Below, in pieces: positions 8,094-39,446 of a DNA stretch of 47,246 bases; position 1 is the stretch's first letter; each line of letters starts with the position of its first letter. A program made the position numbers and the translations under genes. Location: positions 1 through 47,246 of the IMG/VR virus record IMGVR_UViG_3300031456_000006; one strand, 5' to 3'. The notes beneath the pieces were generated by a model. The model ran no database searches. It worked only from the letters and a program-made list of their open reading frames with translations, and had not been told where the DNA came from. The DNA is from a virus.

Positions 8094-8759
8094 CTAGTAG
8101 AAACCTGTGTACTGGCTGATCGTCGGCAGCGGTACCCCCGCCACCACTGCTGTCACTGGTGTGTTCATCAACGTGGTGATGGTCGCCGCGTCCAGTGCCG
8201 CGTCGTAGTAGCGGAGATCGTCGATGACTGTCTCCGCGCCGAGCCCGTCGAACAGGCTGCTGCTCGTCGACGTGGTCTTCAGTGGTCCGGTCAGCGCGGT
8301 ACCGGTGCCGATCTCGGAACCGTTGATGAACAGGTGGACCTTCGCGTCAACGGTGCTGTACGAGCCGGCCACGTGATAGAAGGTTCCGGCGGTGGGCTGC
8401 GCGGTGGACACGTTCGCGCTGGTGCCACCGGAGTTACGCGCCCGCGCCTGGACATTGCCGGACAGGAATAAAATTCCGCGATCGCCTGACCCGGCGTCCT
8501 TGATCTCGGCGAACCAGCCGTCCTGACTGTTCGAGCTCCGATTCACCCAGGCCATCACCGTGAACTGCGCCGTCTGCAGACCCGTGAGCGACGGTCCGTT
8601 CGCGTCACCCGCGGTGGTGGTCTGCGAAAGCCCCTTGCTGGTGTGGCCCGAAGCGGACCGAGAGAGTGAACCGCCGAACACCGTGTTCCGGCTGTTTCCT
8701 GACGCATCGAGGATGTCGCCGCTGGCTTCGTCGAAGTTGTACGCGTACAGGAGAGTCAC
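8094..8759 (-). CDS. LamG/concanavalin-like virion protein with QYTGFY tail
   Basis: This 221-aa protein has the LamG-like pattern LLYAYNFDEASG-IL-DASGN, VMAWVNRSS, FYHVAGSYST, VHLFINGSEIG and IDDLRYYDAALDAATI, the signature of a concanavalin-type jelly-roll that often binds sugars. The start is GTG 8759 behind GGGGG. The last residues, ISQYTGFY, match the end of the next upstream gene product. It is probably exposed on the capsid and may help adsorption. Confidence 0.75.
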   Translation of the reverse strand: MTLLYAYNFDEASGDILDASGNSRNTVFGGSLSRSASGHTSKGLSQTTTAGDANGPSLTGLQTAQFTVMAWVNRSSNSQDGWFAEIKDAGSGDRGILFLSGNVQARARNSGGTSANVSTAQPTAGTFYHVAGSYSTVDAKVHLFINGSEIGTGTALTGPLKTTSTSSSLFDGLGAETVIDDLRYYDAALDAATITTLMNTPVTAVVAGVPLPTISQYTGFY

Positions 8760-9476: not shown

Positions 9477-9510
9477 CGTAGGCAGGCGGAGTGAGGTCCG
9501 CCTGCCTACG
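9477..9510 (-). terminator. Strong stem-loop after the capsid block
   Basis: CGTAGGCAGGCGG and CCGCCTGCCTACG form a perfect 13-bp stem with an 8-base loop, just after the gene that follows the capsid gene. There is no T-run, but actinobacterial terminators often lack one. It probably reduces read-through so that capsid protein outweighs downstream products. Confidence 0.75.
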
Positions 9511-29777: not shown

Positions 29778-29857
29778 CGCCAACTCCCGGCCCGCCAGAG
29801 CATGTACAGCGCAGCGATGGCGGCGACAGCGATGGCGGTGTACAACAGGCCGGTCAC
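29774..29857 (-). CDS. 27-aa membrane peptide
   Basis: A GTG at 29857 (GTGA overlap) opens VTGLLYTAIAVAAIAALYML followed by WRAGSWR: one membrane helix with a basic end. Its start and stop are both coupled to neighbours, so it is probably translated. Function unknown. Confidence 0.55.
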   Translation of the reverse strand: MTGLLYTAIAVAAIAALYMLWRAGSWR

Positions 29858-30381
29858 GCGAGGATGTCCATCACGGCATCGGCGATACGGGCACGGTTGG
29901 AGTAACCCAGCCTGCGCGCATCTTCGTTGTAGGGGAGGTCTGCCAGGCGCTCGATCAGCTGAGCGTGCAGCGCTTCCCGGTCGATTGCTGGTGTGGCTCC
30001 CTCACCGGCGCGTAGGCGTCGGACCTCTGCCGCGAGGTAGGTGGCGACCGTAGGCCAGTGGCCAGCATTGCCAGAGTCGGCGGCGGACAAGGCGATCTCG
30101 ACGAACCCGCGCTCCTCCTCCGTCCAGTCCTCCAGGTGGGGCGATGACGGGGCGGGGTTGCCTGCCGGAATCGAACCGGCCTCGCCCGCTGCAACGGCGG
30201 GTTCACCAGAGCCCGCCCCGTCATCGGTCAGGTGGGGCAGTGCGGCTTCCAGGGGTACGCGCACTTCGTTGCGGTAGTACTCGCGGCTCTCCGGCTTGAG
30301 GTTCTCCCATGACACCCACGGGTACCGCTCGCGATGGAGCGCCCGGGCTGCTGCCTCTACAGCTTCGCCTGAGAACGTCAT
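29854..30381 (-). CDS. Hypothetical protein carrying a tRNA-like insert
   Basis: This 175-aa protein starts MTFSGEAVEAAARALHRERYPW at ATG 30381 (ATGA overlap). Its N-terminal part (LKPESREYYRNEVRVPLEAALPHL) and C-terminal part (DWTEEERGFVEIALSAADSGNAGHW, AIDREALHAQLIERLADLPYNEDARRLGYSNRARIADAVMDIL) are helical and charged. Between them a Gly/Ala/Pro-rich stretch (about residues 53-80) is encoded by the palindromic tRNA-like element at 30143-30225. The element looks like an in-frame insertion. Function unknown. Confidence 0.7.
   Translation of the reverse strand: MTFSGEAVEAAARALHRERYPWVSWENLKPESREYYRNEVRVPLEAALPHLTDDGAGSGEPAVAAGEAGSIPAGNPAPSSPHLEDWTEEERGFVEIALSAADSGNAGHWPTVATYLAAEVRRLRAGEGATPAIDREALHAQLIERLADLPYNEDARRLGYSNRARIADAVMDILA
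30143..30225 (-). repeat. tRNA-like palindromic element in frame within a gene
   Basis: Read on the minus strand, a perfect 14-bp outer stem (30225-30212 with 30156-30143) encloses a 10-base spacer, a 5-bp arm with 7-base loop (CCCGC/GCGGG), four bases, and a perfect T-arm (GCCGG TTCGATT CCGGC, 30180-30164), then seven bases. This is a three-way junction with a canonical T-loop but no D-arm and no U33 in the anticodon-like loop, so it is not a normal tRNA. Confidence 0.75.
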
Positions 30382-32731: not shown

Positions 32732-34198
32732 CTATCGCCAGGTAGTGGTCAGCCGCTCGGCTGCCGCCGCGAGCTTGTCGTCAGGCGTCGACGAACGATG
32801 CAGCTTGACCTTCACCGGCGGGCCGACCTTGATCTCGGCGAACAGCGTCGTCAGCACCTCGCGCTGGCCGGCTACAGGCAGCGCCTCGAACGCGGCCCGT
32901 ACATCACTCGCGTTCACCAGCTCGACCAGGACGGCGGGGACTCCAGCAATCGCCCGTCGACGGCGGGCATCCTCGATCTGCGGGACGAGGTCACGTTCGA
33001 TCACGGCCAGGCTGGCAGGGCTCGTCTCGCCCGCGGTCGCGGACCTGCGGAACCCGTCCAGCCGCTGCTCCAACGTGGCCAGTTGTTCCTCTGCCCGGCT
33101 CCGTTCGGTGTCGTCCGCAACGAACAGATCCTTCGCGTCGTCACGCATGAACCGCGCCACCACCAGGCGGGTCAGGTACTCGTCGACCTCCCACTTCCCG
33201 ATGCTGACACACCCGTCCTTGGTGCACCGGTACTTGGCCTTGAAGGTCTTCCGCGGGGGCACAGCCTGCATCAGGGCGCCGCACTTGGAGACCATCAGGT
33301 AGGAGGCGAGCCACTTCTTCAGCCCCGGCTTGGTGGTCATCCGGTCGGGTTCGTCGAGGACCCGGTTGGCGGCGTGCCACTCGTGCTCGGTGACAAGCCC
33401 GTCCCACACGCCGTCACGAAGCTCCTCGGCGAACAGCCGCTTGCCCATGTAGGCCGGGTTGCGGACCAGCTGCCGGATCGCCTGCCGGGTCCACTCCCCA
33501 CCATCGGGGGCCTTCAGCCCGCGGGCGTTCAGATCCTTCACGAGCTCGGAGATCGGCGTCGACCTGGCGATGCGCCGGATCACTTCGGCCGCGACAGGAC
33601 CAGTCACCGGGTCAGCAACCTGTACGTAGAAGTCGGCCCACAGCATCTTCACCGGACGGGTCACCACTTCGGGGTCCTTGAGTTGACGCACGTACCCGTA
33701 CGGGGTTCGCCCGTGAGGGGTAGCGCCGCCCTTGCGTGCCGCGGCCTGCCGTACGCCGCGCAGTACACGGTCGGAGGTCTTGTTCGACTCGGTCGCGCCG
33801 TCGAGCAGCATGCGACCTAGCCGGTCGTAGTGGCTGGTCTTGCGAGGGTCGAACAGCTCTTCCTCGACGATGAGGTAGATCAGTACGTCGTTGTCCCGGC
33901 ACAGGTTCAGCCACGTGAACCCGTCGACCGGCTCCCGGGATCCACGGGTGACCTCCCACACGATCAGTACGTCGAGCTTGTGTGCCTCGAGGTCTCCGGC
34001 CAGCCGGTGCCAGTCCGCGCGCTTCTTGGTGGCGAACCGGGACGCGCTCGAGCCGTCGTCGTACGTGCCGGCGAGTACCCAGTTGCGCTCGTCGATGACT
34101 TCTGTACCGAGCTCGACCTGGTCGTCGACGGACTTCTGCTTGCCCTTGGACTCGCGCCCATAGACCCCGGCTCTGAGAGGTGTTGCGCTAGACCGCAT
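32732..34198 (-). CDS. Large serine integrase
   Basis: This 488-aa recombinase has the resolvase catalytic domain (VYGRESKGKQKSVDDQ with Ser17 and Arg15; DVLIVWEVTRGSRE), the recombinase domain (TPYGYVRQ, GLKAPDGGEWTRQAIRQLVRNPAYMGKRL), a zinc beta-ribbon (SKCGALM and YRCTKDGC) and a coiled-coil near residues 385-430. It would catalyse attP x attB integration. ATG 34198 is preceded by TATAGT at seven bases and no ribosome site. Confidence 0.95.
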   Translation of the reverse strand: MRSSATPLRAGVYGRESKGKQKSVDDQVELGTEVIDERNWVLAGTYDDGSSASRFATKKRADWHRLAGDLEAHKLDVLIVWEVTRGSREPVDGFTWLNLCRDNDVLIYLIVEEELFDPRKTSHYDRLGRMLLDGATESNKTSDRVLRGVRQAAARKGGATPHGRTPYGYVRQLKDPEVVTRPVKMLWADFYVQVADPVTGPVAAEVIRRIARSTPISELVKDLNARGLKAPDGGEWTRQAIRQLVRNPAYMGKRLFAEELRDGVWDGLVTEHEWHAANRVLDEPDRMTTKPGLKKWLASYLMVSKCGALMQAVPPRKTFKAKYRCTKDGCVSIGKWEVDEYLTRLVVARFMRDDAKDLFVADDTERSRAEEQLATLEQRLDGFRRSATAGETSPASLAVIERDLVPQIEDARRRRAIAGVPAVLVELVNASDVRAAFEALPVAGQREVLTTLFAEIKVGPPVKVKLHRSSTPDDKLAAAAERLTTTWR

Positions 34199-39413: not shown

Positions 39414-39446
39414 GCGCCCGCCTCCCCTTATATGGGAGGCGGGCGC
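39414..39446. terminator. Bidirectional terminator between converging operons
   Basis: GCGCCCGCCTCCC (39414-39426) pairs perfectly with GGGAGGCGGGCGC (39434-39446), 13 bp with a 7-base loop. It lies between the end of the rightward operon (39324) and the end of the leftward late operon (39499). The rest of the 174-bp gap contains no gene. Confidence 0.92.

Follow-up and report, generated by a model that had tools for sequence, protein, structure and literature searches.

The host gene and its palindrome

The DNA that we analysed (the window) is the whole of the 47,246-nt virus record IMGVR_UViG_3300031456_000006 from IMG/VR. An early leftward gene run on its minus strand includes an ORF encoding a 175-aa protein, whose ATG overlaps the stop codon of the upstream ORF (ATGA) and which contains a long palindrome bracketed by a direct repeat. 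The features of the locus are listed below.

29854..30381, minus strand: host gene, a 175-aa ORF with its ATG at 30381 and its stop at 29854-29856 (ORF listing and sequence)
30229..30238, minus strand: left direct repeat GCCCCACCTG, one of only 2 copies in the window, encoding the end of the N-terminal module (...ALPHL); proposed target site
30212..30226, minus strand: left inverted-repeat arm CGATGACGGGGCGGG (inverted-repeat search and shuffles)
30157..30211, minus strand: 55-nt interior, encoding a Gly/Ala/Pro-rich stretch (sequence and folding alternatives)
30142..30156, minus strand: right inverted-repeat arm CCCGCCCCGTCATCG (inverted-repeat search and shuffles)
30133..30142, minus strand: right direct repeat GCCCCACCTG, 96 bp from the first copy, encoding a second Pro-His-Leu in the same frame; proposed target-site duplication
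30133..30228, minus strand: proposed inserted unit, the 86-87 bp element plus one copy of the direct repeat, 96 bp or 32 codons (spacing of the repeats)
30003..30132, minus strand: second module EDWTEEERGFVEIALSAADSGNAGHWPTVATYLAAEVRRLRA, found at the start of small separate ORFs in other viral contigs

The 175-aa protein has no significant match in Pfam or PHROG; phages, IMG/VR, and GTDB contigs yielded no homologue over its full length, and its weak matches in Propionibacteriales were found to be spurious, except for the second module in L040. The N-terminal module (AVEAAARAL...LEAALPHL) is also present in the related phage G006 (L010), where it ends in ALEAALPHL, and the start of gp36 of Arthrobacter phage Bauer resembles it (LEAAAPHL), in a weak match. 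The second module (DWTEEERGFVEIALSAADSGNAGHWPTVATYLAAEVRRLRA) stands at the start of small separate ORFs, as MSQTEEER..., in two other viral contigs, L096 (MSQTEEEREFVEIALAAADAGNAGHWPTVAGHLADEVRR, 82% over 38 aa) and L095 (60% over 45 aa). The palindromic stretch encodes TDDGAGSGEPAVAAGEAGSIPAGNPAPSS, which lies between two predicted helical regions. In a single-sequence AlphaFold2 model, which is of low confidence overall (mean 60.9) and was used for order versus disorder alone, helices span residues 5-19, 30-51, and 88-100 and beyond, while residues 49-85 have a pLDDT <50. The palindrome is thereby predicted to occupy a disordered linker between two helical modules that are found as separate genes in other phages. 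Both the open frame and the model agree with the original prediction, made from the letters of the window, that the palindrome is in frame in the 175-aa gene and encodes a Gly/Ala/Pro-rich stretch with helical flanks.

On the minus strand, CGATGACGGGGCGGG (30226-30212) is perfectly complementary to CCCGCCCCGTCATCG (30156-30142), which gives a 15-bp stem with a 55-nt loop; no other inverted repeat in the 47-kb window is as long. The outer stem had originally been described as perfect and 14 bp long; it is perfect but measures 15 bp (minus strand, 30226-30142). In dinucleotide shuffles, stems of at least 15 bp occur 0.017 times per window. A search of real DNA for inverted repeats of at least 14 bp with a loop of 20-90 nt yielded 18 from 933 kb (actinobacteria and related phages) and 7 from ~0.56 Mb (actinophages). 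Since long inverted repeats are commoner in real DNA than in shuffles, the 15-bp stem is on its own unusual, not extraordinary. The exact 15-bp pairing was recovered in 0.3% of synonymous recodings of the peptide.

Several conventional roles were considered for the palindrome and rejected. We found no supporting evidence for a terminator, a cruciform, or a replication origin; a T-run is absent and the loop is 55 nt long. The arm does not behave as a repeated operator or other repeat either, with matches at up to 3 mismatches occurring at chance level (6 found versus 6.3 expected). Elsewhere in the window, two perfect stems, one of 14 bp with a loop of 6 (9477-9510) and the other of 13 bp with a loop of 7 (39414-39446), are probably transcription terminators.

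A direct repeat brackets the palindrome

The most informative feature of the locus, which the original prediction had missed, is the 10-bp direct repeat GCCCCACCTG that brackets the palindrome, at 30238-30229 and 30142-30133, its sole two occurrences in the window. The right copy overlaps the inverted-repeat arm by 1 base, and the left copy is 2 nt (AC) away from its arm. Because the spacing of the two copies is 96 bp, Pro-His-Leu is duplicated in the same frame, and the added unit corresponds to residues 52-83, TDDGAGSGEPAVAAGEAGSIPAGNPAPSSPHL, which are predicted to be disordered. Judging from G006 and Bauer gp36, the first Pro-His-Leu is the natural end of the N-terminal module; the second is foreign to the module that follows it.

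A direct repeat of at least 10 bp so placed has a probability of ~3e-4, as determined empirically from 135,000 sampled places. We then surveyed direct-repeat pairs (repeats of at least 9 bp, at a spacing of 60-140) in 933 kb and detected 1,715 of them, whose inverted ends were at most 9 bp long except in two low-complexity tandem-repeat stretches, as compared to 14-15 for the pair in the window. Neither another 557 kb of actinophage DNA nor 133 kb from relatives contained a direct repeat of at least 9 bp combined with an inverted repeat of at least 12 bp. Low-complexity tandem repeats aside, ~1.5 Mb of actinobacterial and actinophage DNA thus offers no counterpart to a 15-bp inverted repeat closely flanked by a 10-bp direct repeat. 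Codon choice within the inserted unit is slightly atypical, with a third-position AT content of 36% versus 22% in the remainder of the gene (rank 235 of 4,422 windows of sequence).

The tRNA-like interior

The interior of the palindrome carries an anticodon-like arm, CCCGC-CGTTGCA-GCGGG, and a T-arm-like sequence, GCCGG-TTCGATT-CCGGC (30180-30164, minus strand). Both had been pointed out originally, as an arm of 5 bp and 7 bases and a perfect T-arm with a TTCGATT loop inside the stem, and both are found in the sequence. The accompanying view that this is not a normal tRNA, for want of U33, is borne out as well. The anticodon-like loop CGTTGCA has G33 and C37, i.e., it has neither the invariant U33 nor the purine at 37, and an acceptor stem beside the T-arm cannot form. 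ARAGORN reports no tRNA at the element, and Rfam nothing at the gathering threshold, the best sub-threshold match being to tRNA-Sec (19.7 bits, E 0.21). A tRNA or tmRNA gene was accordingly rejected, given these negative searches and a sequence with no U33, recognised cloverleaf, or acceptor stem. ARAGORN also calls a tRNA-His(ATG) at L013:7749-7827; the other strand has an apparent coding ORF that overlaps it, and the call is probably false.

The T-loop consensus GGYYCGANTCC is found once in the window versus 1.05 expected. Outside called tRNAs, the scan as a whole turned up a strict T-arm with a full 5-bp stem at just two places, this palindrome and one phage attP; three further cases appeared under a looser definition. 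The exact T-arm was recovered in 0.1% of synonymous recodings.

RNA folding gives a different picture from a tRNA. The minimum-energy RNA keeps the outer stem and folds the interior as a single long hairpin, at -53.6 kcal/mol, while the three-way junction, at -49.3 kcal/mol, is 4.3 worse. The pairing probability is 0.013 for the T-arm and 0.009 for the anticodon-like arm. A three-way-junction mRNA was rejected since it differs from the predicted fold, and folding of the minus strand, proposed at the outset as a check, favours the long hairpin. General fold stability is not a signal because 9% of synonymous recodings give folds of equal or greater strength; the exact 15-bp pairing and the exact T-arm are. 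Most likely, the tRNA-like inner arms arose by chance or were left over from the source material of the insert, and are not a working RNA.

A functional tRNA attP was rejected too, there being no matching actinobacterial tRNA and the integrase being a serine recombinase. This large serine integrase (resolvase and recombinase domains) is encoded at 32732-34198 of the window and has no close relative in an IMG/VR peptide scan. The related phage G006 (IMGVR_UViG_3300044841_000029) has a tyrosine integrase instead, which amounts to integrase exchange in this phage group. In G006, the 3' half of a tRNA-Val(TAC) lies 8 bp past the end of the integrase gene, in a perfect 14-bp inverted repeat (L013:15511-15594), an attP-like locus with palindromically placed sites that are probably arm-type sites for the integrase. 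Searching 148 genomes for its core, with one mismatch allowed, gave no match, and its identity as an attP therefore rests on position and tRNA features. The sequence GTGCAGGTCAGAG is present in the G006 arms and also beside the tRNA-like site of phage OnionKnight; the window arms are unlike it, and its occurrence in the window is at chance level. Since GTGCAGGTCAGAG is common to G006 and OnionKnight and not to the window arms, the likeness between the G006 attP and the window element is probably analogous.

A proposed inserted element and its alternatives

The reading that we favour, with modest confidence, is that an 86-87 bp inverted-repeat element was inserted with a 9-10 bp target-site duplication and that the frame was kept by luck and selection. 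The DNA, bounded by 15-bp inverted repeats, would have entered the gene of a small early phage protein at GCCCCACCTG, in the region encoding the linker between its two helical modules, and 9-10 bp of the target would have been duplicated. The uninserted site would have been the junction ...EAALPHLEDWTEEERGF..., with a single GCCCCACCTG. Since the unit is 96 bp long with no in-frame stop, the gene would have stayed open and the disordered linker of the protein would have grown by 32 residues. As for a MITE, the simplest role of the inverted repeats would be as termini for a transposase supplied in trans, and the element is at present probably a passenger. From the observed inverted repeat, direct repeat, frame, linker position, and module boundary, we infer arrival as one insertion, and by transposition with a trans-acting transposase. 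The ends are, however, imperfectly symmetrical, with a 2-nt gap on the left and a 1-base overlap on the right, which speaks against insertion.

That the palindrome might be an in-frame mobile element had been suggested at the outset. The anatomy fits this suggestion, down to the direct repeat, the 32 codons, and the linker, while no other copy, no uninserted relative, and no mobilising enzyme was found. A search for the same palindrome in other actinophage genes had been proposed as a check; a second copy was found neither in the phage itself nor in phage and plasmid collections, nor by exact pattern in IMG/VR. Likewise, ~290 Propionibacteriales and 395 Actinomycetes genomes held no full-length match, and partial DNA matches in L020-L038 and L106-L108 did not lie within a comparable palindrome. 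Homologue searches in phages, IMG/VR, GTDB contigs, and Propionibacteriales found no relative with an uninserted gene. No candidate transposase was identified, and the paired-arm pattern with a 45-70 nt spacer is absent from the 395 genomes. It is because a second copy, an empty-site relative, and a mobilising enzyme were all lacking from these searches that mobility is stated here as a deduction from the anatomy. In a Propionibacteriales genome, two near-identical palindromes of 87 and 89 bp (L057:8219-8305 and 8450-8538), with stems of 18-19 bp and loops of 51 nt, lie 231 bp apart and have the appearance of a small palindromic element present in two copies.

Four other explanations have to be weighed against insertion. 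The stretch could be a Gly/Ala/Pro linker of the ordinary kind, whose GC-rich gene contains a strong hairpin by chance; the direct repeat and T-arm would then be coincidental, and a templated (quasi-palindrome) mutation might have perfected one stem. Its fold strength is indeed unexceptional for the peptide, as the recodings indicate, real sequence has roughly 0.6-0.9 long inverted repeats per 47 kb, and T-arm-like sequences such as GCCGGTCCGATTCCGGC in L084 arise by chance. We nevertheless consider this account rather unlikely: none of the backgrounds searched shows this combination of an inverted repeat and a terminal 10-bp direct repeat a second time, low-complexity tandem repeats aside, and a fold-back template switch would copy the outer flank inverted, not direct. 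It is also conceivable that the palindrome was made during assembly or amplification of the metagenomic contig. Fold-back chimeras are able to create inverted repeats, and the window comes from a single metagenome-derived IMG/VR record. Such an artefact is very unlikely given that the frame is maintained through the unit, and short 15-bp arms, a unique 55-nt spacer, and a direct repeat would be atypical of chimeras.

The remaining two explanations start from the tRNA-like interior. A relic of tRNA-derived DNA, either the tRNA 3' half of an attP or a decayed phage tRNA gene, might have been caught between the modules and translated. In line with this, the T-arm with 4 further nt, GCCGGTTCGATTCCGGCAGGC (21 nt), is identical to an actinobacterial tRNA-Thr(CGT), the attP-like tRNA-Val half of G006 adjoins its tyrosine integrase within a 14-bp inverted repeat with a 56-nt loop, and tyrosine-integrase phages such as VWB, OnionKnight, SF3, and Neville have tRNA T-arms at or near attP. 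Against it, the T-arm plus acceptor is unmatched within 1 mismatch among the tRNAs of 395 Actinomycetes genomes (three, of tRNA-Thr type, match at 2 mismatches), the anticodon-like loop has the wrong bases at 33 and 37, the integrase of the window phage is of the serine type and 2.5 kb away, and a long inverted repeat is absent from all other attP sites examined. This origin is improbable on balance. As for a tRNA-like structure that functions in the mRNA, regulating the gene as a target of RNase P or RNase Z cleavage or of tRNA enzymes that bind it, the consensus-loop T-arm and the tRNA-like spacing are what recommend it. The predicted arms barely pair, no acceptor stem adjoins the T-arm, and ARAGORN and Rfam give no match, which makes it highly implausible; the tRNA mimic cut by RNase P that had been put forward originally gains no support from the same results, nor from the loop bases and the predicted fold.

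The element that we thus favour as an insertion shares traits with several known systems. Rickettsia palindromic elements (RPEs) and the WPEs of Wolbachia are palindromic repeats of ~80-150 bp that lie in frame in ORFs and add residues in a tolerant, exposed region of the protein (PMC3767692, PMC10969869). Like these, the window palindrome is in frame within an ORF, which is open through 32 codons. Unlike RPEs, which form multi-copy families in Rickettsiales, it is single-copy, belongs to an actinobacterial phage, and has no sequence relative that we could find. The motif ATGAC, common to some RPEs, is present in the window arms, but 5 nt are not evidence. A MITE has terminal inverted repeats, a short non-autonomous body, and a target-site duplication, and may be fused in frame to a host ORF (PMC10969869). 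The window element similarly has terminal inverted repeats (15 bp, perfect) and is flanked by a direct repeat, GCCCCACCTG, of 9-10 bp with a 2-nt asymmetry; unlike a MITE, it has no further copies and no identified partner transposase. Repeat-family status was tested, with the negative outcome given above, and the element is therefore not filed as a member of the MITEs or the RPEs.

Phage elements offer two further comparisons. Mycobacteriophage mobile elements (MPMEs) are ~440 bp long, encode a protein, and have short inverted repeats. The window element would, like them, be a small insertion element of an actinobacterial phage, but it is 87 bp long and otherwise dissimilar. With the tRNA-half attP sites of G006 and the Streptomyces phage VWB it shares a T-arm, and the G006 copy is also within a long inverted repeat; it differs in having neither an adjoining tyrosine integrase nor a true tRNA 3' half.

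Palindromic insertions that keep the frame and make a protein longer are known in detail chiefly from Rickettsiales. The window element might represent a protein-coding palindromic mobile element of actinobacterial phages, with a tRNA 3' fragment as its body between inverted repeats, which inserts in frame into inter-module linkers and would be the phage counterpart of RPEs. We regard this broader proposal as improbable. The window element is a single example so far. If true, the actinobacterial phage case would extend protein growth by palindromic insertion to phages, and it would suggest an origin for new linkers upon fusion of small phage genes.
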